A model generated the notes under the pieces. The model ran no database searches. It was not told the DNA's origin and saw only the letters and a program-made list of their open reading frames with translations. Shown one piece after another: positions 9,713 to 59,719 of a DNA stretch of 64,000 bases. The stretch is taken from the NCBI GenBank assembly GCA_030754035.1, contig JASMBC010000002.1, positions 15,441 through 79,440 on the forward strand, given 5' to 3'. Numbering within the stretch: position 1 is the stretch's first letter; each line of letters starts with the position of its first letter. The position numbers and the translations under genes were made by a program. This stretch comes from Arenicellales bacterium. GTDB lineage: Bacteria; Pseudomonadota; Gammaproteobacteria; Arenicellales; UBA868.

Positions 9713-10184
9713 AGTAGCTTTTCTTCTGAACGGTAGTCCAATCAGAGTGAGTGTGCCTGTCACAATGACCGCATTGGAGGTGCTGCGTGGCCCACTCAAT
9801 ATGACAGGCACCAAGCTTGGTTGTGGTGAAGGCGAATGTGGTGCTTGTTCTGTGTTGGTCGATGGCCGATCGATGAATTCGTGCATTCTTCTGGCGGTCG
9901 AGTGTGATGGTCGAGAGATTACTTCCATCGAGGGCCTGGCTGCTGACCCGGGAACTGCAGGTTTGCGTCGGGCATTTGTCGATGCGGGTGCTGTGCAGTG
10001 TGGCTTTTGTACCCCTGGTATGGTGATTCAGGGCAAGTATCTTCTGGATGCGCAGGTGGGCGGCGATAGGGCAGCGATCTCCCGGGGTTTGGAGGGTAAC
10101 TTGTGCCGCTGCACAGGCTACCAGAAAGTCATTGATGCCATAGAGCAGGCCATAGTGTCGAAAGAAGGCGCGGGTGATGATTGA
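9696..10184 (+). CDS. Molybdenum hydroxylase, [2Fe-2S] small subunit
   Basis: A 162-residue subunit with both [2Fe-2S] clusters of the xanthine oxidase family: the plant-ferredoxin type GCGEGECGACSV followed by SC, and the C-terminal helical type CGFCTPGM plus NLCRCTGY. Length and motif order match CoxS/HcrC. The start overlaps the FAD subunit and the stop overlaps the large subunit by 11 bases, a tight medium-small-large operon. It carries electrons from the Mo site to FAD. Confidence 0.93.
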   Translation: MPLIHEVAFLLNGSPIRVSVPVTMTALEVLRGPLNMTGTKLGCGEGECGACSVLVDGRSMNSCILLAVECDGREITSIEGLAADPGTAGLRRAFVDAGAVQCGFCTPGMVIQGKYLLDAQVGGDRAAISRGLEGNLCRCTGYQKVIDAIEQAIVSKEGAGDD

Positions 10185-21942: not shown

Positions 21943-21984
21943 ACCAGGTTTTTTCCCTGGACATCAAGGCCGTAGCAGAACACG

Positions 21985-23247
21985 ATGCAACGCCAGGTGA
22001 TTGAAAGCCGCTATCGGGAACTGACCGCGAGTAGTGCCCGCGCCTTCAGTGAAGCTAAGCGTTGGCTCCCCGGGGGGTGTTCACGACAGGCAGGCTTCTG
22101 GCATCCCTATCCCCTTACTTTCGTGCGCGGTGAAACATGTTACCTGTGGGATCTGGATGGCAGACGTTATATCGATCTTCTCGGTAACTACACAGCATTG
22201 GTACACGGTCATGCCTATCCACCGATAGTAGCGGCAGCACGGGCCCGAACTGACGACAGTTCCTGCTGGGTCGGTAACAACGAGGAACAGGTTCGGCTTG
22301 CCCGGCTGCTGGTCGAACGGGTCGGCTCAGTGGAACAGGTACGGTTTACCAATTCGGGTACCGAGGCAGCCAATCTTGCCCTGATGATCGCGCGCCGCTG
22401 GACCGGCCGCGATAAGGTGTTAATGGCCCGAGGTGGTTACCATGGCTCATTGATGGAGTTTGAGACCGGCTTTGGGGGCGCCACCGGCCCACTGACCTGT
22501 ATTGCCCAGTATGGTGACCTGCCCGCGTTTCAGGAAGTGCTCTCACAAGAGGGTGAATCCATAGCTGCAGTCTTCCTTGAACCGGTTATGGGGGCGGGCG
22601 GCGTGATTTCCGGCAGTCAAGAGTTCATCGAAGGCGTGCGCGAGGCTGCCCACTCAGCTGGTGCGCTATTTGTTCTGGATGAGGTTTTGACCCTGCGGTT
22701 GGCCCGCGGTGGTCGGCAGGCGCAACTCGGAGTCACGCCGGATCTAACCCTGTTTGGCAAGCTGATTGGTGGCGGCTTCCCGGTAGGGGCAGTCGGGGGT
22801 GGCCGGGAACTGCTGGAATTGTTCGACCCCGCCAATCCACGAATCTTTCATACCGGCACCTTCAACGCTAATCCAGTTACCATGGCAGCAGGGGTTGCCT
22901 CGGTCGAGGCGCTGACTGCCGAACGCATCGACCACATGGATGCTCTTGCCGAGAAACTGAAAAACGGGCTGTTGCAGGCCGCCAGTCAGGCGGGGTTAGC
23001 CTTGTCGATCAATCACACGGGCTCGATCATGAATCTGTTTTTTTCCGACTCGCCTGGCACGGCCTATGGTGCGCGTGACGACCAGGAACTGATGGCCCGT
23101 TTTCACCTGGCAGCTTTGAATCATGGGTTGTTCCTCGCTCCACGTGGGCTGATTGCCTTGTCCACAGTAATGAGCGGCGCGACTATTGACGAGGTGCTCG
23201 AGCGCGCAGTTGCGGCACTGGCAGATACCGCGTCGGCAGAACTTTGA
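21985..23247 (+). CDS. Class III PLP aminotransferase resembling beta-phenylalanine aminotransferase
   Basis: A 420-residue class III (glutamate-1-semialdehyde-like fold) aminotransferase. PLP Lys is K259 (TLFGKLIGGG), the ring-binding Asp is D232 (VLDEVL), and the FTNSGTEA phosphate loop is intact. From memory of the beta-phenylalanine aminotransferase of Variovorax, two substrate-binding Arg residues are in equivalent places: R34 in GGCSRQAGFWHPYP and R387 in LAPRGLIALS. It lies 42 bases after the MIO gene on the same strand. A proposed role is conversion of a 3-amino-3-arylpropanoate to the 3-keto acid. Glutamate-1-semialdehyde mutase is unlikely because the context is catabolic. No good ribosome site is visible. 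Confidence 0.78.
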   Translation: MQRQVIESRYRELTASSARAFSEAKRWLPGGCSRQAGFWHPYPLTFVRGETCYLWDLDGRRYIDLLGNYTALVHGHAYPPIVAAARARTDDSSCWVGNNEEQVRLARLLVERVGSVEQVRFTNSGTEAANLALMIARRWTGRDKVLMARGGYHGSLMEFETGFGGATGPLTCIAQYGDLPAFQEVLSQEGESIAAVFLEPVMGAGGVISGSQEFIEGVREAAHSAGALFVLDEVLTLRLARGGRQAQLGVTPDLTLFGKLIGGGFPVGAVGGGRELLELFDPANPRIFHTGTFNANPVTMAAGVASVEALTAERIDHMDALAEKLKNGLLQAASQAGLALSINHTGSIMNLFFSDSPGTAYGARDDQELMARFHLAALNHGLFLAPRGLIALSTVMSGATIDEVLERAVAALADTASAEL

Positions 23248-23428: not shown

Positions 23429-25654
23429 TCAGCCGCCGCTTATTGCGCTGACGAAGGAAATCCGGTCACCATCATGTATCCGGGTCGCCCGCTCGCCGGA
23501 CATGATCGTCTGGCCGTTGAGAATAGCCAGGGACAACTCGCCATCCAGCCGCTCGGCAAGAGTCGGGCGGCACCGTGCCAGTGTAACGCGCAACTCAGCC
23601 AGGTCAGCAACCGGTTCGTCCAGCAGAACTGTTTCGGCTGGTTGCCCGGCTTCCCGGGGAAAATCAATAGTGACCGCAAAACCGGTGGCCGCGCGTACCA
23701 ATGCCGCGCGCCACTGGGGGTGTGGAAGCCCGGCCTCTGTCAGCCCGGCTACCTCGTAGAAACGCATCTTGAGAGCCTCGAATGCGACTGAGTCCAGCCG
23801 TTCACCCTGGTAGGGGCCATCACTGACGCCCTCCAGGAACCAGCGTCGAGGGAGCGTATCATCGGCCGGACCCAGACCAAGGCGATGATTGAGTAGCCGC
23901 TCCAGGCCATTGATATTGGCGCCAGCGGCCTCAACCGTTGCAGCACTCATCTCGACCCCGGTCAACTGCTGTAGTTGGCCCGCAAAGTCATGGCAATCCG
24001 GGAGGCTGGGTGAATTGAACAGCCAGGTATTGAAGCGGCACATGCCCACCGCATCGCCACTGGCATAGACACGCTCACAGCGGGCTACAGCATACTCCTT
24101 GCCCTCGTAGTCGTTGGGTCGGGCCGCTACCTCACCATCGTACAATGCCTGCTTGAACTGTGGGTCGTCATTGATTCGCGCATTGATCTCAAGTGTGACC
24201 CGGTTGCGCAGGTGATCCATGCCGCGGGTTGCAACCGCCAGCCCGAGCGCGAAAGCTTTGATGATGCGCGCATCATGGGGATCTGACTGGAACAGGCCCT
24301 TCGATGCCATGCGGTAATCCAGCGCTGCAGATGGATATTTTCCGTGCGCCACCGCTTTACCTGAGTCGGCCAGAGTATCGCCAAAACCGTTGCGCTCGGC
24401 GATCAAGAGTAGCAGGTGCTCAATCAGTTCAGCGTCACCCCAATTCAGTTCGAGGCCGCCAGTATCCGCGGTAGTCAGCAGGTCACGCTGGTACAGTTCC
24501 ATGGCCCAGGCAATGGCACTTCCGGTGCTGGCTGAGTCCAGGCCGAGGTCGTTGAGCATATTGTTGAATCGGACGACCTGTTGCGGTTGGTCAATACCCA
24601 GGCCCGGCCCGAACTTGCCGAGCGTGACATATTCCGGGCCATCACCATGTAACCAGTTATCCTCGTTCGGTTCGTTATCGGTTGCCTCGGGAACTGTCGG
24701 CAGGCGGTTGCGGGCACGACAGTGCACCGGGCATTTGTAGCAACCAGCCATGCCATCGCGGTAAGTATCGAAGTGCTCCGCGTCAAGCGTTTCCCGCCAA
24801 CCGGTCTGCTGGTTGTTGCGAACGCCCAACGCGCCCAGCAACCGGCTTGGCTTGTAGAGAAATGGGGTACCGACTGTCTTCAGTACTTTGCGTGTCACAC
24901 TGGTACTGAGAATCTTGCGGCCGATCGCTTTGCTCGCGGCCCGGTAGTCATCGTCCATCGGCCAAGCGGGTGGGCGGCCCAGGATCAGGATTGCCTTGAG
25001 GCCCAGGGCCCCCATTTTGGCACCGCCCCCTCCGCGCGCCCAGATGGACTTCGGTCCGGCCATAATTCCTGCGCATAAGACCAGGTTCTCACCTGCCCGG
25101 GTGATCCGGGCCATCGCCATATCGCGGCCTTCCTGGCAGGCGAAGTCCCCTTCGATCGCTGTTGTCAGGGCAATGTTATCCATGCCTTGGTAGCAATCTC
25201 CATCCAGAAACTCGGTCGTACCCTGGCCCAGTTTCAGCACGGTCCATCCCGGTGAGCGGCCGTAGAGCACAATATGGTCAATACCATGGCGGCGCATAAA
25301 CGACGGGAAGTAATCACCGGCGTTGCTGTCAAGTATGGCGTCACTGTCTGGAGCCACCCCACTGACGTTGCCGCGGGGTGCTCCGGGGATTAGCGAGGTC
25401 AGCACTCCGGCGCCGAAGATCAGTGGAACCTGTGGGTCCAGCGGATCCAACCCTTCCGGGAGCAGGTTGTACAGCAGTGCCATGTTCGCGCCACGGCCTC
25501 CCAGGTAGTTCTCAAAGATCTCCCGTGGCAAAAAATAACGACAGGTTTCATGCCGCTCAAGATCGACAAACAGTGTGCCACCCTGGGTAGCAAATTGTGG
25601 TTCGTCGTGCAGGCGATCGCACAAGCGTGTAACTCGCTCACGGGTATCCATCAT
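23429..25654 (-). CDS. Aldehyde:ferredoxin oxidoreductase (AOR family) fused to a C-terminal MoaD-like domain
   Basis: A 741-residue tungstopterin oxidoreductase. Typical AORs have about 605-620 residues. The N-terminal GGRGANMALLYNLLP segment, the [4Fe-4S] Cys motif CYKCPVHC and the late Cys in GMCRF mark the AOR fold. Residues from about 658 to the end form a ubiquitin-like MoaD/ThiS domain (VTIDFPREAG, TLAERLDGELSLAILNG, IHDGDRISFVSAISGG) ending in the diagnostic Gly-Gly. MoaD delivers sulfur for the pterin cofactor, so the enzyme carries its own cofactor-assembly partner in cis. Likely substrates are arylacetaldehydes or benzaldehyde; a BamB-like role is a weaker alternative. The start overlaps the bzdR stop by one base. 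Confidence 0.82.
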   Translation of the reverse strand: MMDTRERVTRLCDRLHDEPQFATQGGTLFVDLERHETCRYFLPREIFENYLGGRGANMALLYNLLPEGLDPLDPQVPLIFGAGVLTSLIPGAPRGNVSGVAPDSDAILDSNAGDYFPSFMRRHGIDHIVLYGRSPGWTVLKLGQGTTEFLDGDCYQGMDNIALTTAIEGDFACQEGRDMAMARITRAGENLVLCAGIMAGPKSIWARGGGGAKMGALGLKAILILGRPPAWPMDDDYRAASKAIGRKILSTSVTRKVLKTVGTPFLYKPSRLLGALGVRNNQQTGWRETLDAEHFDTYRDGMAGCYKCPVHCRARNRLPTVPEATDNEPNEDNWLHGDGPEYVTLGKFGPGLGIDQPQQVVRFNNMLNDLGLDSASTGSAIAWAMELYQRDLLTTADTGGLELNWGDAELIEHLLLLIAERNGFGDTLADSGKAVAHGKYPSAALDYRMASKGLFQSDPHDARIIKAFALGLAVATRGMDHLRNRVTLEINARINDDPQFKQALYDGEVAARPNDYEGKEYAVARCERVYASGDAVGMCRFNTWLFNSPSLPDCHDFAGQLQQLTGVEMSAATVEAAGANINGLERLLNHRLGLGPADDTLPRRWFLEGVSDGPYQGERLDSVAFEALKMRFYEVAGLTEAGLPHPQWRAALVRAATGFAVTIDFPREAGQPAETVLLDEPVADLAELRVTLARCRPTLAERLDGELSLAILNGQTIMSGERATRIHDGDRISFVSAISGG

Positions 25655-26550
25655 TATTCCTTGGTCATGGCTTTTCGCTGACGGCGAATAATCTGAAGCA
25701 ATTGGTGGATACAGTCTGGCTCCGACAGTTCGCTGGTATTGATTATGGCGTCAGCCTGGCGGTAATAGGGCTCGCGTTCGTTCAGCATCTCTGTCAGGTC
25801 AGCGAGTGCCTCGGGGTTGCCGTCCATAGGACGAAAATCTTTTTGCGCCAGAACCCGCTGCATATGATCTTCCGGGCGGGCCTGAAGCCAGATAGTAACG
25901 TAGTGGGTAAGCAGATAACTGAAGCTTACCGGATCGTTGATGATGCCGCCGCCGGCCTCAAGGATGATGCCTTCGTGCTGTTGACGAATGCGTTGCAAGG
26001 CGCGCTGTTCCACACGCCGATAGGCTGCCTGGCCCGACAGTGCATGGATTTCGTCGGCAGACATGCCTGCATCTTTTTCTGTTTCTTCAGTCAAGCGGAT
26101 AAAGGGTCGGTCGATTTTTTCAGCCAGAGTTAGTCCCAGAGTGCTCTTACCAGCGCCGCGCACACCGAGCAGGGCGAAGCCTCCTTGCTTGTGCAGATGA
26201 CCGTCTATGTCGTGTTCAATGAAGTCGCTGACCTGACGCAACTGTCCGGGGTCAAGCGCACCCAGTCGTTCTAACAGCAGGCTGCGTTCGCGGTCCTGCA
26301 ATTGCTCGGTACTGACCAGTTCGGACAACGGCACCTGCATCGCCGAGGCCAGTTGCCGCAAACGCCTGATCGAAGGGTTGCCCTTACCCGTTTCGATTTG
26401 CGCGAGGTAGCGGGTTGAGATCTCCGAGTAGTCGGACAACTGTGCGCGGGTTATGCCCATACGCAGCCGCAGATTGCGAATTCGTTGGCCGAGACGGGCG
26501 AGAAAGGCCTCTTCACGCCCGGCGTTGTCTGAGGAGATGGTGAAGGCCAC
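25654..26550 (-). CDS. bzdR: BzdR/BoxR-type regulator (XRE HTH plus shikimate kinase-like sensor)
   Basis: A 298-residue protein with the exact two-part build of BzdR: an XRE-type helix-turn-helix at about residues 18-78 (MGITRAQLSDYSEISTRYLAQIE) and a shikimate kinase-like domain from about 122 with a Walker A loop GVRGAGKST (129-137). In Azoarcus, BzdR represses the anaerobic benzoate operon and is released by benzoyl-CoA bound in the kinase-like domain; the length is also the same as I remember for that protein. It sits in the - strand operon with had, oah and dch, so it would be autoregulated with its targets. Known BzdR sites contain TGCA repeats. Confidence 0.92.
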   Translation of the reverse strand: MAFTISSDNAGREEAFLARLGQRIRNLRLRMGITRAQLSDYSEISTRYLAQIETGKGNPSIRRLRQLASAMQVPLSELVSTEQLQDRERSLLLERLGALDPGQLRQVSDFIEHDIDGHLHKQGGFALLGVRGAGKSTLGLTLAEKIDRPFIRLTEETEKDAGMSADEIHALSGQAAYRRVEQRALQRIRQQHEGIILEAGGGIINDPVSFSYLLTHYVTIWLQARPEDHMQRVLAQKDFRPMDGNPEALADLTEMLNEREPYYRQADAIINTSELSEPDCIHQLLQIIRRQRKAMTKE

Positions 26551-26574: not shown

Positions 26575-27021
26575 CTAGATGTGCTGGCCGCTATCGACGT
26601 GCAGTACTTCACCGGTGATCATACGGACCGCGTCGGAGAGTAGGAATAACACGGTGCGGGCCACGCCGGCCGGCTCGGGCAGGCAATCCAGCGCGGTCTC
26701 GGAAAGTGCGCCATCGCTCATTTCTGTCAGGGCCCGGTCACGGATAATGCCGGCGTTATTGACCAGCAGGGTAGTGTCATCGGGCAAAGAGGCGGTGGTG
26801 TCAGCCACTGAATCCGGATCGCGGACATCGACCTGGTGCCATTCGATGTTAGTGCTGACTGTGCTAGTGCTGGGTTCATGGTCGAAGATATGCGCGAAAC
26901 TGTCGCAGTGTTGCAACTGGGCTGCGATTTCTCCACCGATACTGCGACTGCTCGCGGTGACTATCGCAGTGACTATCGCGGTGGTATCCCTGAAATCAAA
27001 CAGCGTGTTCATGATCGCCAC
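26575..27021 (-). pseudogene. Decayed short-chain dehydrogenase, active-site segment deleted
   Basis: A 148-codon open frame that keeps an SDR N-terminus up to NNAGIIRDRALTEMSDG and then jumps directly to an SDR C-terminus (PAGVARTVLFLLSD, ITGEVLHVDSG). About 85-100 residues with the catalytic Ser and YxxxK are missing, and the glycine-rich NAD loop is damaged. A 12-base tandem duplication at 26956-26979 adds a repeated AIVT. It cannot be a working SDR. It lies between dch and bzdR with a 24-base gap to bzdR, so it is still within the operon. The intact ancestor was probably a 3-hydroxyacyl-CoA dehydrogenase-like SDR. Confidence 0.8.
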
Positions 27022-27057: not shown

Positions 27058-27828
27058 CTAGCGGTGTTGCCATCGTGGTGCTCGCTTTTGCAAAAATGCC
27101 TCTAGCCCTTCAACAGCATCATGGCTTGTCATGAGTTCATCCAGATACAATTTTTCCACCGCAGCCAGGCGGATTCTGACTCGGCTCGCAAGGTCGGCGC
27201 GCAGCGCACGGGTGGCGAGCCGCAGACTCGCGGCACTGCGTGGAGCCAGGTGCCTGTCAAAATAGGCCAGGGCCAACGCAGCCGGGTCGTCATCCAGTGC
27301 GCTCACCAGTCCACAGGCCTGCGCTTCAATGCCACTGATGGTGCGGCCAGAGAGTAACAGATCGCTGGCAGCCGCGGGGCCAATCAGTTCGGGAAGCAGG
27401 CAGGACGCAGCTGGTGCGAACACCGCAAGCTGGATCTCGGGCTGACCCAGAGCGGCATCCGGGGAGGCGAACAACAGGTGCGCGGCGCAGGCAAGCTCCA
27501 GGCCCCCGCCCAGGCACTGCCCCTGAACAGCGGCCAGCACCGGTGTCGGTGAATCGAGCAAAGTCAGTACCAGTTGATGCAAAGACTTAAGCATCTGTTC
27601 ACATTCACCTGGTAGGTGTTCTTCGACACTGGCACCGAAACTGAAGTGCGGGCCTTCAGCTGTGAGCAGGATGGCGTGCAGGGTTGGCTCGTGGGCATGC
27701 CGGTCGAGCGCAGTTTGCAGGGCCTCGACCATAGAGCGGTCGATGATGTTGCTTTTGGGTCGGGCGAGAGTCAGCGTCAGCAGGGCAGCATCGCGCTCCA
27801 GTGAAACCTTGACTGGAGATGTGGTCAT
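27058..27828 (-). CDS. dch: Cyclohexa-1,5-diene-1-carbonyl-CoA hydratase
   Basis: A 256-residue crotonase-fold enzyme that adds water to the dienoyl-CoA product of benzoyl-CoA reductase. The sequence follows Dch closely: LTLARPKSNIID, GPHFSFGASVEEHLPG, the oxyanion segment GQCLGGGLELA, LGQPEIQLAVFAPAASCLLPE and the C-terminal SHDAVEGLEAFLQKRAPRW. The start overlaps the oah stop by 4 bases, so the two are translated together. It is the second step of the lower benzoyl-CoA pathway; the name bzdW is used for the same gene in Azoarcus. Confidence 0.93.
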   Translation of the reverse strand: MTTSPVKVSLERDAALLTLTLARPKSNIIDRSMVEALQTALDRHAHEPTLHAILLTAEGPHFSFGASVEEHLPGECEQMLKSLHQLVLTLLDSPTPVLAAVQGQCLGGGLELACAAHLLFASPDAALGQPEIQLAVFAPAASCLLPELIGPAAASDLLLSGRTISGIEAQACGLVSALDDDPAALALAYFDRHLAPRSAASLRLATRALRADLASRVRIRLAAVEKLYLDELMTSHDAVEGLEAFLQKRAPRWQHR

Positions 27829-28961
27829 TTCCCTTGGCCTGGCATCAGGCTTTCGATCAGTTCCACCGTCCAGGGTGCGCCCTTGGCCAGTGCCCGGCGC
27901 AGTGCGACGAAATCAATTTCCCGGCCGGTTTCCCGGGTGCCCTCGTTAAAAGCGCGAAAACCCGTCCGGGCTTCGTTCATCATGTTCAGCGCGAGCCAGG
28001 CCCTTGAGTTCTCTTTATTGCGGTTCCATGCCTGCAGCTTGGGTTTGCGCAGTTCCTCGACACTCTTGGTCATGCACTCGGGGAAGGTAAGCAGTAGCTT
28101 TGCGCAAAGCTGTTCGACCCTCTGGTCCAGTAGTGTCAGGTCCACTTGTCCCGATTTGAGCACCTGCTTGGCCTGTTCCCGAGCCTCACCCTGAAGGAAT
28201 TCGCCGTGAACCATCTGGCCGAATTCGTCCAGCATACGGTCGGTGATTACCATGGGATTGGGCCGAAATTCACCATCAACCTTGAGCGCCGGCACGACCT
28301 CGCAGCAGATTCCCAGGCGATAGGCCTTGTGCGCCGAAAATGGTTCGCACAGGGTGCCTGAAACCATTGCCTGTTCACAACCGATCATGACCGGCAGAAA
28401 GTCGGTTGAGCCGCCGATAGCGGCCGAGCCGTGCTTGGGGCCGGCCTGCCCGAACAGGGCGAGATCCTGGCTTACGGAAAAGTCACAGGCCATACCGATC
28501 TCCTGCCCACCACCGATGCGCATACCGTTGACGCGGCAGATGACCGGCTTATCACAGCCGAGAATCGCCGAGACCATGTCATTAAAAAGGCGCATGTATT
28601 GCCGGTATTCCTGCGGGTTACCTGCGTAGTACTCGGCGTACTCCTTTGTGTTGCCGCCGGTACAGAAAGCCTTGTCGCCGGTACCGGTGAATACCACTGC
28701 GTTGACATCTCGGGAGGTGGAGGCCCGGCCGAAGGCGTGGATAACACCTTTCACCATCTCGGTGGTGTAAGAGTTGTACTGGGACGGGTTGTCCAGGGTA
28801 ATCCAGGCGTTGTACAGACCCTCGGCCGTAGTTCCATCCAGAGTCGTCGCCGGGCGCTTCTCGAAGATCACACCGGCAGCGGCTTTGTCGCCGGCAAGGG
28901 CGTGATCGACCAGGACCTCAGGAGCTGTTCTGGCAACGATAGATTCAATCGTGTCGTTCAT
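27825..28961 (-). CDS. oah: 6-oxocyclohex-1-ene-1-carbonyl-CoA hydrolase (ring opening)
   Basis: A 378-residue crotonase-superfamily ring hydrolase (Oah/BamA/BzdY). Length and segments such as WITLDNPSQYNSYTTEMVKG, FTGTGDKAFCTGGNTKEYAEYY, GMRIGGGQEIGMACDF and GPKHGSAAIGGSTDF are those of the family that hydrates and cleaves the C-C bond to give 3-hydroxypimelyl-CoA. It is the most reliable marker gene for anaerobic aromatic degradation. It starts 16 bases after the had stop and overlaps dch by 4 bases. Confidence 0.95.
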   Translation of the reverse strand: MNDTIESIVARTAPEVLVDHALAGDKAAAGVIFEKRPATTLDGTTAEGLYNAWITLDNPSQYNSYTTEMVKGVIHAFGRASTSRDVNAVVFTGTGDKAFCTGGNTKEYAEYYAGNPQEYRQYMRLFNDMVSAILGCDKPVICRVNGMRIGGGQEIGMACDFSVSQDLALFGQAGPKHGSAAIGGSTDFLPVMIGCEQAMVSGTLCEPFSAHKAYRLGICCEVVPALKVDGEFRPNPMVITDRMLDEFGQMVHGEFLQGEAREQAKQVLKSGQVDLTLLDQRVEQLCAKLLLTFPECMTKSVEELRKPKLQAWNRNKENSRAWLALNMMNEARTGFRAFNEGTRETGREIDFVALRRALAKGAPWTVELIESLMPGQGK

Positions 28962-28977: not shown

Positions 28978-30045
28978 TCAGGGAATCAGTATTGCCCGGC
29001 GACCCAGGCTATGGTCATGGACTGCTTGAAAAACCTCGTTGATCTCATCAAGCGGGCGTTGTTCTACAAATGGGCCAAGTGCGACTTGCCCGGTAAGGAT
29101 AAGGTCGAGGGCGGCAGGGTACAGCGAGGGCGGGCAGCCCCAGTTGCCTAGCGCCCTGGCATGAAAGGCCATGAGGTTGGAAAGGCGCAACGACGACTTT
29201 TCCATGGTGAAACCGACCACCGCGAGGGTCGCACCGTGGTTAAGTAGGCCAAAGGCGCTTTGCTGTCCGGCGCCGGTGCCCGAGCACTCAAATATTTTCC
29301 ATCCCGTGTCGGCCAGGTCCCGTTCCCGTGCAAAGTTGCGGATAAGTTTTTTCAGGTCACGGCCCTCTACCTCGCGGGCGTCTACCGTCAGTGCTGCACC
29401 ATGGTCTGCAAGCAGTTCGAGTTTGGTAGCATCGATATCGACTGCGACCACCTGAGCGCCCAGGGCGTTGGCGATCTGAACTGCGTAACCGCCGATGCCC
29501 CCTGCGCCGATGACTATCGCAAGATCGCCGGCCTGGACCTGCGCCTGCAGTGCGGCCTGATAAGGGGTGGTTACCGCGTCCGCCACAACTGCAAGATCAG
29601 CCAGGGTCAGGCTGGTCTTTTCCAGTCGACTCAGATCTACTTCGCACAGGCCGTTGGCCGGGACCTGAATATGACTGGCAAACCCCCCGTCGATGTCATT
29701 GCCGGGCATCTGTTGAGCCCGGCAGATAGTTTCTTTACCTTGACTGCACAGGTCGCATTCGCCGCAGGGGATCACGGCGGGTACGATGACTGGCCGGTCC
29801 AGCCAATATGTCGCCTCATCGCCGGTGGCAATGACATGGCCGCTGATCTCGTGGCCCAGCACGAGCGGCAGCGCCTGATTGGTCTTGACACCATCGTAGT
29901 AAAAGCCCAGATCCGTATGGCATACGCCGCAGCCGGCGATTTCGATGGTGACGTGCCCGGGTGGGGGTGGAGGCAGCGTCAGCGCTCTGCGCTGTAGTGG
30001 TTCGTCAGCGCCGGAAAAAACCCAGCTGTACGGAGTATTGGTCAT
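28978..30045 (-). CDS. had: 6-hydroxycyclohex-1-ene-1-carbonyl-CoA dehydrogenase
   Basis: A 355-residue zinc alcohol dehydrogenase-family enzyme that oxidises the 6-hydroxy compound made by Dch, with NAD. The catalytic zinc site is seen in [15 protein letters not shown] and GHEISGHV, the structural zinc Cys residues in [15 protein letters not shown], and the NAD loop in [13 protein letters not shown]. First gene of the - strand operon; its promoter must lie in the 187-base gap shared with korA. Known as bzdX in Azoarcus. Confidence 0.92.
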
Positions 30046-30232: not shown

Positions 30233-31948
30233 ATGACCCCGGAAAGACTATCGATCACTGTGGCCGGCAGCGGCGGTGCGGGGGTGGTAACCGTTGGCAA
30301 CACCCTGTTGGAGGCGGCCGGGTCGATCGGCTGGTACGCGCGCATGGCCAGGTCCAGTGGCCCGCAGATCCGTGGCGGCGAGGTTGCGGCCACGGTCTGC
30401 CTGTCACCGCAGCCGATTCAGTCAGATCCTAGCCACTGTGACCTGCTCGTGGCGCTTGACTGGAAAAATATTGACCGTTTTGCCGATGAGATAGTACTCA
30501 ACGGGCATAGTGTGGTTATCAGTGATCCAGAACAAGGAGAAGTGCCCGACAGTATCCGTGACAGCGGGGCACAGTGCCTGGCAATACCTTTCAAAGAACT
30601 GGCAGCGAACGCCGGTGGTGCACGGGTGAATATGGTTGCCTTGGGTATTACCATGCAGTTGGCTCGACTGACTCGCGAATCCATCAAGTTCACGCTGGAG
30701 AAAACTTTTCATGGCGACCGGCGATTTACCATCGGCATGGCGGGGGTCGATGCCGGGATCCTCGCGGCATTGTCCGTCAACCGCCTGGACCTGCCTCCGG
30801 CCCCGACCACATCCTGTTCCGAACGCTGGTCCATCACTGGCAACCAGGCGGCGGCACTGGGGGCGTTGCGCTGTGGCGTGCGCTTCGCTGCAGGTTATCC
30901 CATCACCCCGGCTACCGAAGTCTTGGAATACCTGGCGCTGGCCCTGCCGAAACTCGGAGGAGAGTTCGTTCAGGCGGAGGATGAACTGGCGGCGGTAAAC
31001 CAGATCATAGGAGCCTCTTTCGGTGGGGTGCCTGCGATCACTGCGACATCGGGACCGGGTTTGGCACTGATGATGGAGTCGATTGGACTTGCGGTTGCCG
31101 CCGAAATACCCATCGTTGTCATCGATGTCATGCGCGGTGGGCCCGCAACAGGCATACCCACCAAGTCCGAGCAGAGCGACCTCAATATTGCGTTGTACGG
31201 GCTGCCGGGTGATGCACCACACTTGGTAATCGCCCCGACCTCAGTCAATGATTGCCTTGATGCCGTGTATTGGGCTGTAGAACTTTCTGAGTGGTTACAG
31301 GCGCCGGCGATCGTACTCTCGAGCCAGGCTCTGGGCCAGACGCGCACGATAGACGACAAGCCCCCAACCCGTGAACAAAAGGCAGTACGCAAGGTTCCGG
31401 ACCAGGCTGATGGAGCATACCAACGCTACCAGCTGACGCCCGATGGGGTGTCACCCATGACGTTACCAGGAATGCCTGGTGGTCAGTACACGGCTGAAGG
31501 TCTGGAGCACGACGAATCTGGTATTCCGTCGGTACGCGCCGGTGACCACCTGCGCCAACTGGAAAAGCGACGCGGCAAACTGACCAGCTTTGACTATGGC
31601 GATTACTGGGCTGATATCCAGGGCGAAGGTTCGACTGCCATCATTACCTGGGGTGGGCCGGTCGGTGCCGCACGAGAGCTACTCGCACGTTCACATGAGT
31701 TCGATGGAGGTTTGCGGCTTATCGCATTGCGGTTGCTGGCACCGGAACAGCCCGGGCCTATGGCCAAGGTGCTATACGGGGTAAAACGTATTCTGGTAGT
31801 GGAGCAAAGCCATGGTGGCCAGTTCTACCGCTATCTCAGGTCCTGTTACGATCTGCCGGCTCCGACGAGATCCTTTTGTCGTCCCGGACCTGTGCCGATT
31901 CTTGCGGCCGAGATTGCCGCCCAACTACAACAATGGAACTTGTCATGA
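30233..31948 (+). CDS. korA: 2-oxoacid:ferredoxin oxidoreductase, fused gamma-alpha subunit (KorA type)
   Basis: A 571-residue fusion of the gamma domain (residues about 5-190; AGSGGAGVVTVGN, SSGPQIRGGEVAATV) and the alpha domain (from about 200; GNQAAALGALRCGVRFAAGYPITPATEV, DELAAVNQIIGASFGG, TSGPGLALMMESIG). In Thauera the KorAB pair oxidises 2-oxoglutarate and regenerates the reduced ferredoxin that benzoyl-CoA reductase needs; the same is inferred here from the neighbours. It overlaps korB by 4 bases. The gamma domain sets the start at 30233 although the ribosome site is poor. Confidence 0.88.
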   Translation: MTPERLSITVAGSGGAGVVTVGNTLLEAAGSIGWYARMARSSGPQIRGGEVAATVCLSPQPIQSDPSHCDLLVALDWKNIDRFADEIVLNGHSVVISDPEQGEVPDSIRDSGAQCLAIPFKELAANAGGARVNMVALGITMQLARLTRESIKFTLEKTFHGDRRFTIGMAGVDAGILAALSVNRLDLPPAPTTSCSERWSITGNQAAALGALRCGVRFAAGYPITPATEVLEYLALALPKLGGEFVQAEDELAAVNQIIGASFGGVPAITATSGPGLALMMESIGLAVAAEIPIVVIDVMRGGPATGIPTKSEQSDLNIALYGLPGDAPHLVIAPTSVNDCLDAVYWAVELSEWLQAPAIVLSSQALGQTRTIDDKPPTREQKAVRKVPDQADGAYQRYQLTPDGVSPMTLPGMPGGQYTAEGLEHDESGIPSVRAGDHLRQLEKRRGKLTSFDYGDYWADIQGEGSTAIITWGGPVGAARELLARSHEFDGGLRLIALRLLAPEQPGPMAKVLYGVKRILVVEQSHGGQFYRYLRSCYDLPAPTRSFCRPGPVPILAAEIAAQLQQWNLS

Positions 31949-32799
31949 AGGGCGAGTCGAGCCAAGCATTTTCGACAAAAAGCTATAAGTCCGGTGTCAA
32001 ACCTATCTGGTGTCCAGGCTGTGGCGATTTTGGTGTGCTGGCCTCCATATCCCGCGCACTGACACTATTGCAGGTTCCCCCAGAGGAGGTGGCTGTTGTT
32101 TCGGGTATCGGCTGTTCTTCGCGGATACCTGCCTACCTCAATTCTTATGGCTTTCATGGTGTCCATGGTCGCGCATTACCACTTGCCACCGGGCTTAAAC
32201 TGGCGCGTCCCGAACTGACAGTACTGGTAGCCGGTGGCGATGGTGATGGCTTTGCCATTGGCGGAAATCATTTTCTACATGCCTGTCGACGCAACGCTGA
32301 TCTCACCTACATCGTTATGGATAATCAGGTCTATGGCATGACCAAGGGCCAGGCCTCCCCCACGACCGAACCGGATTGGGACCTCAGTCAGTTGACCCCG
32401 GGCGGCCCGGGTATGAATCCTTTTCTTCCCTTGGTACTGGCGCTAGGCTCGGGTGCAAATTTCCTTGCCCGCGCCAGCAGCAGTGACCCCGGGGGCACAG
32501 CTGATGTCCTGGTCGAGGCGATTCGTCATCCAGGTTTTTCTTTCGTGCAGGTATTAAGCCCGTGCCTTACTTTTCAACCAGAGCAGCGAAAGTGGAAAAA
32601 AATGGTACGTCCGGCTCCAGTGGAAGCAACCACGGATCCGGTCAGGGCTGCCAAGCGACTTATGACCGATGATAACTTTTTTGTTGGGGTTCTCTATCGG
32701 GGTGAGCGAGATCCATACGATGAATCTAGCGTGGAGGCGACATGCGAGCTCAGCTCGCTCGAGTCGGAGTTTAAAATACATGATCTCGCCAGAAGTTGA
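31945..32799 (+). CDS. korB: 2-oxoacid:ferredoxin oxidoreductase, TPP-binding beta subunit (KorB)
   Basis: A 284-residue thiamine diphosphate subunit. It shows WCPGCGDFG near the N-terminus, GIGCSSR, the TPP motif GGDGDGFAIGGNH with VMDNQVYGMTKGQ, and a late Cys in LSPC, which together supply the four ligands of a [4Fe-4S] cluster. ATG at 31945 overlaps the korA stop (ATGA); an in-frame ATG 12 bases earlier is possible. Works with KorA as a heterodimer or larger assembly. Confidence 0.9.
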   Translation: MKGESSQAFSTKSYKSGVKPIWCPGCGDFGVLASISRALTLLQVPPEEVAVVSGIGCSSRIPAYLNSYGFHGVHGRALPLATGLKLARPELTVLVAGGDGDGFAIGGNHFLHACRRNADLTYIVMDNQVYGMTKGQASPTTEPDWDLSQLTPGGPGMNPFLPLVLALGSGANFLARASSSDPGGTADVLVEAIRHPGFSFVQVLSPCLTFQPEQRKWKKMVRPAPVEATTDPVRAAKRLMTDDNFFVGVLYRGERDPYDESSVEATCELSSLESEFKIHDLARS

Positions 32800-54881: not shown

Positions 54882-56726
54882 ATGACACTAGCACACATGA
54901 CACAAAAAACCACGGCGGTGGAACGGATTCTGGCGGTGGCCGAACCGCTTTTCCTGGCGGCGAGTTACGCCAACGTGACCATGGATCAGATTGCCCGCAA
55001 GGCTGGATTTACCAAGGGCGGCCTGTACCATCATTTTCCCAGCAAGGAGGCTTTGTACCTGGCGATGATGCAGACTGATCTTGCCGAGAAGCAGGCCCTT
55101 TTTACCGCGATGGCCCGATCCGGGGGTGACTGTCGATCGCGGCTGCGGTGCCTGACCCAGGCATTTTTTGAGTTACCCGATCCCAAGCGCCAACTGATCA
55201 GCCTGGTACGGCGCAACAGTAACGCCCTTGGTGACGCAGCCCGGGCTCGGTTGATCAGCGCCTACCAGCAGGCACTGCCGAACCAGATCCTGTCCATAAT
55301 CAAGAGTGGGATTCGCACGGGTGAGATTCAGACCGTCGATGCCCGTCTGTTAGCCTGGTCATTCGTAGCTCTGGTGGAAACCGCGATCAGTGCGCATGGG
55401 GACCGGGTACTGGAAGAGTCGGGTAAGAAACTCGATTTCGTCCTCGACCTGTTTTTCCGTGGAGCGTGCGGCCCAAAAGACAGTGGACTGGGCCAGGCAG
55501 CCACGACCAGCACTGCGGCAAATTCGGGGTCGGCAGTGACGGCACCAACAGCTTATACCGGCACCGGTGTGTTTCCCGAGTGGCAGGACCAGGATCTGGC
55601 TGGGCTGCTGTTGGCCTGCCGTGATCTTGTCGAGGACGGCGACTTTCCAACGGTACAGCGCTGGCGGGATGGGGGTGGCCGGGTGCTAGGCCATTTTCAG
55701 GTCTATTTTCCAGAGGAGATCGCGCATGCCGCCGGGCTGCTGCCCTTCAAGTTGCGTGGTGCCCCGGTTGAGCCCGACCATGCAGACTCCCGTTTCGGTT
55801 CGTACCTGTGTTCTATTCTCAAGACATCGCTGGAACTGGTGCTGAGCGACCGCGTAGAACTGGACATGTTTGTTACCCACCCGATCTGCGATGCAGCCCG
55901 AAATCTGGCCGCGGTCTGGGAACGCAACAGTGAGCATCCCTGTCAGATCCTGTACCTGCCGCAGAATGCGAATTCGGCCGACAGCGGGCGTTACCTGCGT
56001 AACGAGTACGCTCGGCTCCTGGAAGTGGTCCAGCAGGTTGCCGGGACTACGATCACCGATGACGACCTGCGAGGCTCTATCGAGCTGTTCAATCGCAACC
56101 GTACGCTGATCCGCGAGTTGTATCAGATCAAGCGTGAGACACCGTGGCTGTTAAATGCCGAGGATGCTTATTGCCTGGTATCGGTGGGAGGGATGGTGCC
56201 GCGCGAGGAGCACAATGCCTTGCTTGAGACGGTACTACCGATGATCCGGGAGCAGGCCGATAGTAACCAGGAGGACCGGATACGGGTGGTATTCGAGGGC
56301 GGTTTCTGTGAGCAGCCACCGTTGGATCTGATCCGCATGGTCGGTCGCTCGTGCTATGTTGTTGATGACGACTTTCTGATCGGACTGCGCTGGATTCTTG
56401 AAGACGTCCCGAGCACGGGTGATCCGCTACACCAGCTGGCCCAAGCCTACCTGGAGAAATCATCCTACAGCCCGGTACAGCACGACTTGCGCAAGCCCAA
56501 GGAAAAAATGCTCAAAGAACGGATCAGCGCCGCCCGGGCGGATGCCGCCATTATTACTGCGGCCAAGATGTGCGAGCCAGGACTGGAGGAGCAGGTCTGT
56601 TATACCCGCTCGTTGGACGAGGACGGTATAGGATATTTCGTCAGTGAGTTCGAAGAAAACATGACGAGTTTTGATCACCTGGGTCTGCAGATCGAAACTT
56701 TTATGGAAAACCTGATGTACCAGTGA
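54882..56726 (+). CDS. bzdN: TetR regulator fused to the BcrC/BzdN-type catalytic subunit of benzoyl-CoA reductase
   Basis: A 614-residue two-part protein. Residues 1-195 are a complete TetR regulator: HTH at about 14-60 (VTMDQIARKAGFTKGGLYHHF) and a TetR ligand domain ending FVLDLFFRG. A 30-40 residue linker rich in Ala, Thr, Ser and Gly follows. Residues 233-614 are a full-length reductase subunit (family length about 380) with GHFQVYFPEEIAHAAGLLP, the iron-sulfur Cys region THPICDAARN and the end MCEPGLEEQV. There is no Met or convincing ribosome site between the halves, so the fusion looks real. The start may be ATG 54882 or 54897. The next gene encodes the other catalytic subunit. The two halves are normally separate genes, so a lost stop codon is the main alternative. 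Confidence 0.85.
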   Translation: MTLAHMTQKTTAVERILAVAEPLFLAASYANVTMDQIARKAGFTKGGLYHHFPSKEALYLAMMQTDLAEKQALFTAMARSGGDCRSRLRCLTQAFFELPDPKRQLISLVRRNSNALGDAARARLISAYQQALPNQILSIIKSGIRTGEIQTVDARLLAWSFVALVETAISAHGDRVLEESGKKLDFVLDLFFRGACGPKDSGLGQAATTSTAANSGSAVTAPTAYTGTGVFPEWQDQDLAGLLLACRDLVEDGDFPTVQRWRDGGGRVLGHFQVYFPEEIAHAAGLLPFKLRGAPVEPDHADSRFGSYLCSILKTSLELVLSDRVELDMFVTHPICDAARNLAAVWERNSEHPCQILYLPQNANSADSGRYLRNEYARLLEVVQQVAGTTITDDDLRGSIELFNRNRTLIRELYQIKRETPWLLNAEDAYCLVSVGGMVPREEHNALLETVLPMIREQADSNQEDRIRVVFEGGFCEQPPLDLIRMVGRSCYVVDDDFLIGLRWILEDVPSTGDPLHQLAQAYLEKSSYSPVQHDLRKPKEKMLKERISAARADAAIITAAKMCEPGLEEQVCYTRSLDEDGIGYFVSEFEENMTSFDHLGLQIETFMENLMYQ

Positions 56727-56760
56727 ACCTGGCGAATTGCCGGGACGAGGAGAGACAGTA

Positions 56761-58053
56761 ATGGGACAGGATAGTCAGAACGAGATTGTAGGGCGCGGTG
56801 CCCGGGACGGGGCCGAGCTTTTCCGGCAGTGGTTCTCCTCACTGGACGCGACTGCCGAACAGGGAGCGCAGAGTGCCTACGTGTTTGTCATGGGCAGTAT
56901 GAACGAGATTCTAAAGGCTTTCGATCTGCCGGTGGTCTTTCCGGAGATCAATTCGCTCCAGACCGCGGTGCGGCGTGTTGCCCACGAGTACCTCAACGAG
57001 GCTGAGGATTACGGTTATTCACCCGACATCTGCGGCTACGTCAAAGCTGATGTAGCAGTGCAGTTGCGTAATGGCGAGCACCCGATGGGTAGGATTCCCA
57101 AGCCTTCCCTGGCCGTTTACACCAATGCCTGTAATACCTATATCAAGTGGGCGGAGATCTGGGAGCGTATGTACAAGATTCCGATTTTCACGCTGGACGT
57201 ACCGGGCAGCCGCGAGGGCGGGGTGCACACTGGCCCAGGTGACCGCTCGTTCGAGAATGATCGCAGTTATGTCGAGGCCCAGGTGCATGAGCTGATCACG
57301 CTGTGTGAGGAAGTAACCGGTCGCAAGTTCGACATTGACAAGTTGCGCGAGGTATTGGGTTATGCCAACGACGTGGCCAGCAGCTGGCAACGGGTGTTGC
57401 AACTGAATGCCAGTCGGCCTTCAGTATTCAATGCCGTCACTGAGGGGACTATTTACCTGGGGGTTGCCAACGGCTTTCGCGGCACCGAGCAGGGCAGTCG
57501 ATATTTCAGGGAGCTGGTCGAGGAGATGGAATATAAATCGGCGAACGGCATCGGCACCCTGACCGACGAGAAATACCGACTGACCTTCGTGGGCGTTCCC
57601 TGCTACCCGATTTTCCGGCGCTTTAACGAGATGTTCTCCGACTGGGGAGGCACTTTCGTTAATTCAACCTATCTGTGGTTTGCCTCTGGTGGTACCAACA
57701 GGGGCTTTCAGTACGACCTGCAACGCCCGGTCGAGAGCCTGGCCGAGGGCGTGCTGCTCAGCGTCCGTGACGCCATGGACAGTATGTTCCATCAGAGTTA
57801 CATGATTGAGGATATGATCGACGAAATGCATGTGGATGGTGTGGTTTATCACCCGATCAAGAGTTGTCGCACAGTCTCTACCGGGCTCGCGGATAGTCGG
57901 CGCTACCTGATGGAAAAAACCGGTGTGCCATCGCTGTTCCTGGAATCGGACATGATGGATAAACGTGTTGTTTCTGAGGCTCAGATGAAGAACCGGGTAG
58001 ACGCGTTCTTCGAGGGCCTTGCATCGCGTCGCAGCCAGCAGGCCGCGGCCTGA
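56761..58053 (+). CDS. bzdO: Benzoyl-CoA reductase catalytic subunit (BcrB/BzdO type)
   Basis: A 430-residue subunit of the 2-hydroxyacyl-CoA dehydratase/benzoyl-CoA reductase family, of BcrB/BzdO length. Three conserved Cys regions that bind the [4Fe-4S] cluster are visible: YSPDICGYVKADV, VYTNACNTYIKW and HPIKSCRTVSTG. With the C-terminal half of the preceding fusion it forms the module that reduces benzoyl-CoA to the cyclic diene. Start at ATG 56761 (GGAG upstream); a second start at 56737 lies inside the previous gene's end. Which aroyl-CoA it prefers cannot be read from sequence. Confidence 0.88.
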   Translation: MGQDSQNEIVGRGARDGAELFRQWFSSLDATAEQGAQSAYVFVMGSMNEILKAFDLPVVFPEINSLQTAVRRVAHEYLNEAEDYGYSPDICGYVKADVAVQLRNGEHPMGRIPKPSLAVYTNACNTYIKWAEIWERMYKIPIFTLDVPGSREGGVHTGPGDRSFENDRSYVEAQVHELITLCEEVTGRKFDIDKLREVLGYANDVASSWQRVLQLNASRPSVFNAVTEGTIYLGVANGFRGTEQGSRYFRELVEEMEYKSANGIGTLTDEKYRLTFVGVPCYPIFRRFNEMFSDWGGTFVNSTYLWFASGGTNRGFQYDLQRPVESLAEGVLLSVRDAMDSMFHQSYMIEDMIDEMHVDGVVYHPIKSCRTVSTGLADSRRYLMEKTGVPSLFLESDMMDKRVVSEAQMKNRVDAFFEGLASRRSQQAAA

Positions 58054-58073
58054 ACCAGTAGAGGAATCAAGCC

Positions 58074-58889
58074 ATGGCGTATGCTGCAGGTGTAGATGTG
58101 GGGTCGACCCAGAGTAAAGCCGCGATTGTTGATGAGGATGGCAACCTGATCGCGACCGCTCTCGACGAAACCGGAGCAAACGTGGTGCAAGCTGCAGAGA
58201 GGGTATATGAACAGGCCCTGCGCAGCGCTAAGCTGCGCGAAGAGGAAGTCGACTACATTATTGGCACTGGTTACGGCCGCTATAAGGTGACATTCGGCAA
58301 CGCCCAAGTTACCGAGATCAGCTGTCACGGCCGGGGCGCGGTAAAGATGTTTCCCGATACCCGCACGGTGATCGACATGGGTGGCCAGGATACCAAAGCC
58401 ATCAGCGTCAGTCCGAGCGGGGAGATCAACGATTTCTGTATGAATGACAAGTGTGCCGCCGGGACTGGCCGCTTTCTCGGGGCTGCTGCGATGGCCCTGG
58501 ATCTGTCTTTGGCCGAGCTTGGCCCTACGGCCTTGAAGTCGGATAAGCCCGTACGCATCAGCACCACCTGCACGGTATTCGCTGAGTCAGAAGTTCTTTC
58601 CTGGCTGGGTAAAGGAAAAAAACTTCCCGACATACTCTGGGGAGTGCACCAGTCGATCGCTACCCGAACCATCGGCCTGGTGCGTCGGGTAGGGCTGGAC
58701 GAGAAGATTACATTTACCGGCGGGGTAACCCGCAACGTGGCCATGGTCAAGGCGCTGGAAGACCGCCTCGGTATCCGCTTGAACGTGAGTGAACAGGCTC
58801 ACTACTTTGGTGCGCTCGGCGCAGCACTTTTTGCTCTTGATCATATCCTAGATAGCCGTAAACCCGCGTCTAGCGCAGAGGTGGCGTAA
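58074..58889 (+). CDS. bzdP: Benzoyl-CoA reductase ATPase subunit (BcrA/D, BadF/G family), first copy
   Basis: A 271-residue ASKHA-fold ATPase: phosphate loops [11 protein letters not shown] and [10 protein letters not shown], the iron-sulfur Cys in [13 protein letters not shown] and in [11 protein letters not shown], and TGGVTRN near the end. It uses two ATP per electron to push electrons onto the catalytic module. Two ATPase genes rather than one argue for a reductase, not for a 2-hydroxyacyl-CoA dehydratase activator. It is short compared with BcrA/BadF (about 435 residues), pointing to the Bzd subtype. The letter P is given by gene order only. Confidence 0.85.
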
Positions 58890-59719
58890 TGGACTGTACA
58901 GTCGGTATAGACGTAGGTTCTACCTACACTAAGTGTGTTGCCCTTTCGGCAAACGGTGAGATCGTTGGCCGCAGACTGGCACAAACCGGGTTCAAACTGG
59001 GGGAGATCTCGGCGAGGCTATTGAACGAGACCCTGGCAGACAGTGGGCTCGAGCGCGGCGATGTTGGCTATGTAATCGCTACCGGCTTTGGCCGCCACCA
59101 GGTCAAGGACAAGGACGCGGCGGTGACTGATCTGACCGCCGCCGCCCGCGGCGCTAGGTTCATCTTTCCGGATACCCGCACTGTGCTCGATATCGGCGGT
59201 CAGACGATGAAGGCGAGCCGGGTCGACGAGAACTGCAAGGTGGATTCGTTTCGTCTCAACGATAAGTGCGCGGCTGGAACTGGCGCGTTTTTGGAAAAGA
59301 CTGCGTATTACATGGGGTTTAAAACAAAGGAGATCGGACCGCTGTTGGCCACCTCACGTGAGTCAGTCTCCATATCAGGGGTATGCGCGGTGTTCGCTGA
59401 GTCTGAAGTGATCAATCACCTGTCACAGGGTACTGCACCGGCGGACATCATGCAGGGTGCGGTCTCATCACTGATTAAACGATCGGTTCAGTTAATGAAG
59501 CGGGTCCGCGCTGAGCCCGGATATACCCTGGTTGGTGGCCTGTTACGGTTTCGGACAATGGTTGACGAAGTGCAGGAGAAACTGGGCCAGGAAGTCAATG
59601 TTCCCGATGGGGATCTGGTTCAGTTTACAGCCGCGCTGGGTGCAGCCGTGCTGGGGCACCGGCGGATGCAGCAACTGGGTGTAGGCAGCGGGCTTACGGT
59701 GGGTGCCGGTGCTGCCTGA
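58889..59719 (+). CDS. bzdQ: Benzoyl-CoA reductase ATPase subunit, second copy
   Basis: A 276-residue ATPase of the same family: [38 protein letters not shown] and GVCAVFAESEV, so the pair of cluster Cys is kept. The second phosphate loop has Thr where the first copy has Asp (GGQTMKA versus GGQDTKA), which may make the two nucleotide sites unequal, as in a heterodimer. It overlaps the preceding stop by one base. The letter Q is given by gene order only. Confidence 0.85.
   Translation: MDCTVGIDVGSTYTKCVALSANGEIVGRRLAQTGFKLGEISARLLNETLADSGLERGDVGYVIATGFGRHQVKDKDAAVTDLTAAARGARFIFPDTRTVLDIGGQTMKASRVDENCKVDSFRLNDKCAAGTGAFLEKTAYYMGFKTKEIGPLLATSRESVSISGVCAVFAESEVINHLSQGTAPADIMQGAVSSLIKRSVQLMKRVRAEPGYTLVGGLLRFRTMVDEVQEKLGQEVNVPDGDLVQFTAALGAAVLGHRRMQQLGVGSGLTVGAGAA

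Follow-up and report, generated by a model that had tools for sequence, protein, structure and literature searches.

Why would a tungsten enzyme carry its own MoaD-like sulfur carrier, and what would such an enzyme do beside the genes of the benzoyl-CoA pathway? Both questions are raised by a single gene of the window, the stretch of 64,000 nucleotides analysed here. An earlier note, written from the sequence, had described its product as an aldehyde oxidoreductase (AOR) with an in-cis MoaD-like domain and an intact C-terminal Gly-Gly. The reading frame, which opens with ATG and closes on the residues ISGG, bears out this description. Pfam recognizes AFOR_N, AFOR_C and ThiS in one polypeptide, whose AOR core (residues 27-648) precedes a MoaD/ThiS domain (about 660-741) ending in Gly-Gly (Table 1). 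With both AFOR domains and the four cysteines of the [4Fe-4S] cluster, which are invariant in 80 of 80 proteins of the clade formed with its relatives, the protein belongs to the AOR/WOR family. The tail is best read, from its sequence and predicted fold, as a putative dedicated sulfur carrier acting in cis.

The fold of the tail is that of the MoaD/ThiS carriers. The Pfam ThiS match on residues 671-741 (E 2.2e-4, 22.1 bits) falls 0.4 bits under the cut-off of 22.5, and the same stretch reaches 24.8 bits, above the Pfam cut-off, in a six-frame search of the genome. Predicted alone with AlphaFold2 (pLDDT 83.5), the domain adopts a beta-grasp fold, and the top four PDB matches returned by Foldseek are all MoaD (3rpf_C, 6jbz_B, 1nvi_D and 1fm0_D). 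VIA-align gives Z 9.9 against mycobacterial MoaD (6jbz_B; rmsd 2.5, 79 aligned residues) and Z 9.5 against 1nvi_D, the MoaD of another bacterial molybdopterin synthase; other ubiquitin-like proteins and cobalamin-binding domains score Z 8-9. The comparison of the predicted tail with MoaD that the note had suggested thus yielded the expected ubiquitin-like fold. In the full-length model, the core matches AOR structures by Foldseek (PDB relatives 1aor, 9mqx and 8c0z), with low pLDDT (about 42-48) at residues 450-490, which are part of the active site.

Table 1. Features of the fusion gene and of its surroundings (window coordinates).
Feature	Position	Strand	Evidence or remark
AOR-MoaD fusion gene, 741 aa	23429..25654	-	last gene of minus-strand run
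AFOR_N, tungstopterin-binding domain, residues 27-226	24977..25576	-	Pfam E 2.6e-41
AFOR_C domains 2 and 3, residues 241-648, cluster Cys 305, 308, 312, 539	23711..24934	-	Pfam E 2.8e-86
MoaD-like beta-grasp domain, residues 660-741	23432..23677	-	Pfam ThiS; fold matches to MoaD
C-terminal Gly740-Gly741	23432..23437	-	GG end in 63/64 complete fused relatives
Val343, position of PfAOR Glu313	24626..24628	-	V 59, I 17, T 4 of 80
His460, position of PfAOR Tyr427	24275..24277	-	His in 80/80
His481, position of PfAOR His448, kept	24212..24214	-	His in 80/80
bzdR-type regulator (HTH and shikimate-kinase-like)	25654..26550	-	NF006015, 327 bits, cut-off 204
dch, cyclohexa-1,5-dienecarbonyl-CoA hydratase	27058..27828	-	TIGR03189 over cut-off
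oah, 6-oxocyclohex-1-ene-1-carbonyl-CoA hydrolase	27825..28961	-	TIGR03200 over cut-off
had, 6-hydroxycyclohex-1-ene-1-carbonyl-CoA dehydrogenase	28978..30045	-	TIGR03201 over cut-off
korAB-type 2-oxoacid:acceptor oxidoreductase, divergent neighbour	30233..32799	+	TIGR03710 over cut-off; beta subunit models
Class I benzoyl-CoA-reductase-like genes: C, B, two activase-type subunits	54882..59719	+	TIGR02263 and TIGR02260 (both under cut-off), TIGR00241 over

Relatives were collected by scanning one genome per species. Of the 80 loci returned, a complete fused C-terminus is present in 64 (L080, truncated at its N-terminus, is counted here); another 4 break off at the end of a contig, and the remaining 12 are split. 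Relatives at 99, 87, 83, 79 and 65% identity share the architecture, as do many others in the 50-60% range, so the fusion is not a sequencing artefact. In all 12 split loci, which are acidobacterial, the AOR core is followed downstream by a separate MoaD frame; split and fused forms are thus equivalent arrangements of the same two parts. Outside this clade, the 76 AOR records of a plasmid collection are all below 60% identity, with no clade-like member among the 20 matches listed; phages gave no match to the fusion AOR; and a PF01314 search of 249 genomes of the phylum retrieved, besides the gene of the window, ordinary AORs only.

The architecture, which the note had proposed to look for in other genomes, therefore recurs in dozens of them, but it is not new. 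A MoaD fused C-terminal to an aldehyde ferredoxin oxidoreductase of Azoarcus is in print, in the text and in row 3 of Table 1 of Iyer, Burroughs and Aravind (2006; PMC1779556). The domain order described there is the same as in the window protein, which makes the Azoarcus protein a possible member of the present clade, and Iyer et al. suggested a role in tungsten cofactor synthesis for MoaD proteins linked to AORs. That text and table row make no reference to Glu313 or to the benzoyl-CoA pathway. The MoaD-fused architecture is hence already known, and it is the clade-wide change of the active site and the link with benzoyl-CoA catabolism, both described below, that we did not find in print.

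The most constant part of the tail is its end. The Gly-Gly pair is exactly terminal in 63 of the 64 complete fused relatives, the exception being L087 with four extra residues, and only 6 of 622 other ORFs of at least 200 aa in the same loci end in this way. Both glycines are invariant in the two alignments made, A1 (48 rows, L087 included) and A2 (30 rows, including 6 of the 12 split proteins, without L069, L070 and L083). The domain around them drifts: over 51 relatives, mean identity to the window protein is 39% in the tail against 63% in the core. Such rapid evolution of a fused domain with few conserved residues besides Gly-Gly is what could be expected of a structural or regulatory lid, covering or stabilizing the active site and never charged with sulfur. 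A lid would not need Gly-Gly, however, and both the pair at the extreme C-terminus and the separate moaD of every split relative answer the needs of a carrier rather than those of a lid, which we consider quite improbable. Of the two functions that the note had offered, sulfur loading in cis appears the better, since Gly-Gly is invariant while the domain drifts.

A carrier could also be released. The domain might be cleaved after translation and serve on its own, in the manner of AorD, the fusion ensuring only that both parts are made in equal amounts. The coexistence of split and fused forms in one clade is consistent with such processing, as is the lower conservation of region 646-660 than of the core (0.62 vs. 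0.80), yet the linker residues Thr657 and Gly658 are conserved in 98% or more of the 52 sequences compared, and we regard cleavage as unlikely. A different kind of trimming may concern a few members: between 2 and 8 residues follow Gly-Gly across the separate MoaD proteins of L069, L070 and L083 and the fused protein of L087, and these carriers would need trimming before they could be charged.

How unusual is a carrier so closely tied to its enzyme? AORs of about 610 residues with a separate MoaD had been given by the note as the rule, and the three other full AORs of the window genome agree with it: they are 608-615 aa long, and a ThiS-family gene, separate in every case, lies no more than about 1.5 kb away. 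A fifth AOR match is a fragment, in an assembly (G000) of 1.75 Mb that is 69% complete. One of the three lies in an aorA-aorB-aorC-moaD-aorE-moaA run adjoined by moeB on the opposite strand; in this run the ThiS, AFOR and ThiF names derive from searches, the others from gene order, length, the look of the sequence and the published operon. An annotated MoaD/ThiS gene also adjoins 5 of the 8 plasmid AORs examined. Given these adjoining carriers, a carrier beside an AOR is the usual arrangement, of which the fusion is a variant.

The partners needed to charge and use a sulfur carrier are widespread among the hosts. A ThiF/MoeB-type E1 was found in 11 of 11 genome entries and MoaE in 9 of 11 (G332 and G373 look like one genome). 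The window genome has a single E1; MoaE was not found in its 69%-complete assembly and is present in G374, the host of the 99%-identical L014. In Geothermobacter (G369), the fused AOR coexists with E1 enzymes and no MoaE match, which may be a gap in an assembly that is in pieces. Every clade genome tested has other ThiS-family genes, located beside moaE in G014, G061, G332, G372 and G374, and the idea that the fused domain is the only MoaD of the cell was rejected for this reason.

Published systems offer partial parallels. According to the accounts of its operon and maturation, AorABC of Aromatoleum aromaticum is likewise a tungsten-dependent AOR of an aromatic degrader with MoaD-like maturation proteins, AorD and AorE (PMC6365974; PMC9295118). 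It differs from the fusion in its three subunits and separate carriers, which are absent from the purified enzyme (PMC6365974). In the expression series reported for the recombinant enzyme, AOR activity was 4.5 U/mg without aorD and aorE, 16 U/mg with them, and 85 U/mg when tungstate was added as well; the tungsten contents were 1.06, 0.39 and 1.52, respectively (PMC9295118). Closer in subunit composition, class I WOR likewise consists of a single large subunit with a ThiS-like partner, WorX, which is a separate protein instead of a fused domain; the section of the 2026 classification that names this neighbour gives its exact function as unknown (PMC13328260). Natural fusions show which partners meet, and here one sulfur carrier is tied to one tungsten enzyme. 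The role of AorD and WorX proteins thereby becomes directly testable through the fused domain or its Gly-Gly.

The second question, that of the reaction, turns on the active site. As set out in a 2025 review where it deals with the metal site, AORs share a conserved second shell of Thr243, Glu313, Tyr427 and His448 (PfAOR numbering) that shows conservative single substitutions only, and BamB and YdhV are without those residues and have a Cys ligand (PMC12096430). Alignment to 1aor places Thr263, Val343, His460 and His481 of the window protein at these positions. The counts out of 80 in Table 1 cover the window protein and 79 relatives longer than 600 aa, L072 being too short. Across the clade, Thr and His are kept, Glu is replaced by Val, Ile or Thr, and Tyr by His, a second shell that is not the one of AOR sensu stricto; Glu341 and Tyr342 are kept as well, and Asp480 joins His460 as a new invariant residue. 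Among 18 AORs outside the clade (3 from the window genome, 7 from other genomes of the phylum, and 8 from plasmids), Glu occupies position 343 in all 18 and Tyr position 460 in 16, and the AorB-like proteins of this control set keep Glu313, unlike the clade. A FastTree phylogeny of 44 proteins recovers the clade as a single group (support 0.97, midpoint root). The name aldehyde oxidoreductase given by the earlier note hence stands for the AOR-family core and is less safe for the reaction, plain aldehyde oxidation being likely but not secure. The altered active site also constitutes a natural test of the mechanism proposed for Glu313.

BamB (4z3w) provides a further parallel: it is a member of the AOR family, takes part in the benzoyl-CoA pathway, and is devoid of Glu313, as is the clade. 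Comparison with 12 BamB-like proteins, one of which was checked against the PDB (4z3w, E 0), revealed Gly337 in 26 of 26 clade rows at the column where Cys is invariant in Bam proteins. Judging from its place, this column likely corresponds to BamB Cys322. Since the Cys column is absent and His448 is kept, membership of BamB (class II benzoyl-CoA reductase) was rejected. By these residues the clade is neither ordinary AOR nor BamB, the second shell being changed and the Bam-type Cys missing.

The genomic context points to the benzoyl-CoA pathway. The claim that the AOR gene closes an operon with bzdR and the ring-opening genes held up: dch, oah and had are found upstream of it, also on the minus strand, with a shortened SDR gene in between, the bzdR stop and the AOR start overlap by 1 nt (TAATG), and the fusion gene comes last. 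Benzoate-CoA ligases are encoded within the same window, and the korAB-type neighbour is likely a reducer of ferredoxin. The shortened SDR gene, between dch and bzdR (26575-27021, minus strand), encodes 148 aa comprising the start and the end of the family without its middle, and a 275-aa SDR occupies its position in L010.

This context extends to the relatives. The fused lineage accounts for 68 of the 80 loci, a number that includes L087 and the cut loci. In 49 of them the AOR is flanked by at least one gene for a 2-oxoacid:ferredoxin oxidoreductase, for an aryl-CoA ligase or for ring opening; these 49 comprise all 7 close relatives and 42 of the other 61. None of the 12 split acidobacterial loci has such genes in its flanks. 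Flanks extended up to 8 kb, many on short contigs, and genes were called by BLAST at identities of at least 28-35%. Two loci, L013 and L081, have a frame for benzoate-CoA ligase whose first base directly follows the stop codon of the AOR; for the one in L013, the name comes solely from BLAST. Behind the AOR of L011 come a TetR-type gene and then boxC and boxB, which belong to the aerobic route through benzoyl-CoA.

Co-occurrence was also assessed at the scale of whole genomes. Among 369 genomes of the class of the window, the clade (called with A1, E <=1e-150) was found in 9 and Oah (TIGR03200, E <=1e-120) in 10, nine genomes sharing both and 359 having neither (Fisher p 3e-17, relatedness disregarded). 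The nine clade genomes, that of the window included, fall in seven families, and G120, of the same class, has a class I cluster and no clade AOR. The class of Geothermobacter (G369) was represented by 277 genomes, of which 32 have the clade, 46 Oah, and 27 both (Fisher p 3e-20); the 5 remaining carriers gave no Oah match. Of the 19 Oah-only genomes, 13 encode a member of the AOR family no more than about 9 kb from Oah, 2 have dch and had in that vicinity, and four are untyped; ten of these 13 proteins were aligned, and all ten have the Bam residues. Conversely, in 26 of the 27 genomes with clade and Oah that were examined, dch, had and Oah lie together in 16 and a BamB-type protein is nearby in 2, one of which also has dch and had (Fisher, 16/1 vs. 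2/13: p 5e-6). This difference in context indicates that, in the Geothermobacter class, the clade goes with class I-like dch-had-oah clusters rather than with bamB clusters. A further 13 genomes, partly chosen by context and overlapping the other sets, all possess Oah. HGD-D pairs, which have the class I reductase fold, were detected in 14 of 14 genomes tested, and the clade was consequently rejected as a replacement for benzoyl-CoA reductase.

To our knowledge, class I benzoyl-CoA degradation is not usually described as including such a tungsten enzyme, and we found no paper in the open literature that connects AORs fused to MoaD with class I benzoyl-CoA reductase. The co-occurrence points to a tungsten enzyme beyond the usual description. 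With roughly even confidence, we propose that the fusion protein, a member of the AOR/WOR family, acts as a single-subunit tungstopterin oxidoreductase with a dedicated MoaD of its own and serves benzoyl-CoA catabolism. MoeB, the single E1 of the genome, would adenylate and thiocarboxylate the terminal Gly741. MoaE would then dock on the tethered domain, its sulfur being used to make molybdopterin beside the apo-enzyme, and the AOR core would be filled with two molybdopterins and tungsten. The mature enzyme would most likely convert an aromatic aldehyde to the acid, to be activated by the neighbouring CoA ligases, and reduce ferredoxin, from which class I benzoyl-CoA reductase would draw its electrons.

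Several observations count against this proposal. Glu313 and Tyr427 are replaced clade-wide; the ordinary ThiS-family genes mean that the fused copy is not the sole carrier; the published tungsten content fell with aorDE when no tungstate was added (PMC9295118); L087, L069, L070 and L083 have residues after Gly-Gly; and clade and pathway come apart in G120, in the carriers with no Oah match and in the split loci. The main uncertainty lies in the altered second shell, with which the enzyme might catalyse a different reaction. Loss of both Glu313 and Tyr427 in 80 of 80 proteins, the new invariant His460 and Asp480, and the near-perfect co-occurrence with Oah in the class of the window would suit a low-potential reaction of another kind, with an aromatic acid or a CoA thioester of the benzoyl-CoA pathway as substrate. 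The BamB-type Cys ligand is absent, however, the HGD-D pairs make a further ring reductase superfluous, Thr263, Glu341, Tyr342 and His481 are kept, and the adjoining ligase and the box genes of L011 speak for a step before benzoyl-CoA; we therefore lean against a reaction other than aldehyde oxidation, while giving it some weight. Tentative to a like degree is the broader idea that the clade is an unrecognized component of the class I pathway, with a third type of AOR-family tungsten site lacking both Glu313 and the Cys ligand, a non-aldehyde chemistry, and cofactor sulfur supplied in cis.

Other genes of the window deserve mention. The frame at 54882-56726 (plus strand) encodes a benzoyl-CoA reductase subunit C-like protein preceded by an N-terminal TetR-type domain in one frame (TetR_N at residues 16-62, HGD-D at 273-611). 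The same 626-aa TetR/HGD-D frame occurs in G374, host of L014, and most relatives are about 390-450 aa long. The separate TetR gene of L011 is 52% identical to the TetR part of this ORF; an initial BcrCB call in L011 came from this match and was rejected, the genes there being boxC and boxB. Convergent to the AOR gene, a frame at 20293-23247 (plus strand) encodes an aromatic amino acid lyase or aminomutase (TIGR04475, under cut-off) next to a class III aminotransferase, a pair that may feed aromatic acids from phenylalanine. Finally, the molybdenum subunit of a xanthine-oxidase-family enzyme is encoded at 10174-12492 (plus strand), for which the best model is 4-hydroxybenzoyl-CoA reductase alpha (under cut-off); genes for a CoA transferase and for XdhC-type maturation are nearby.
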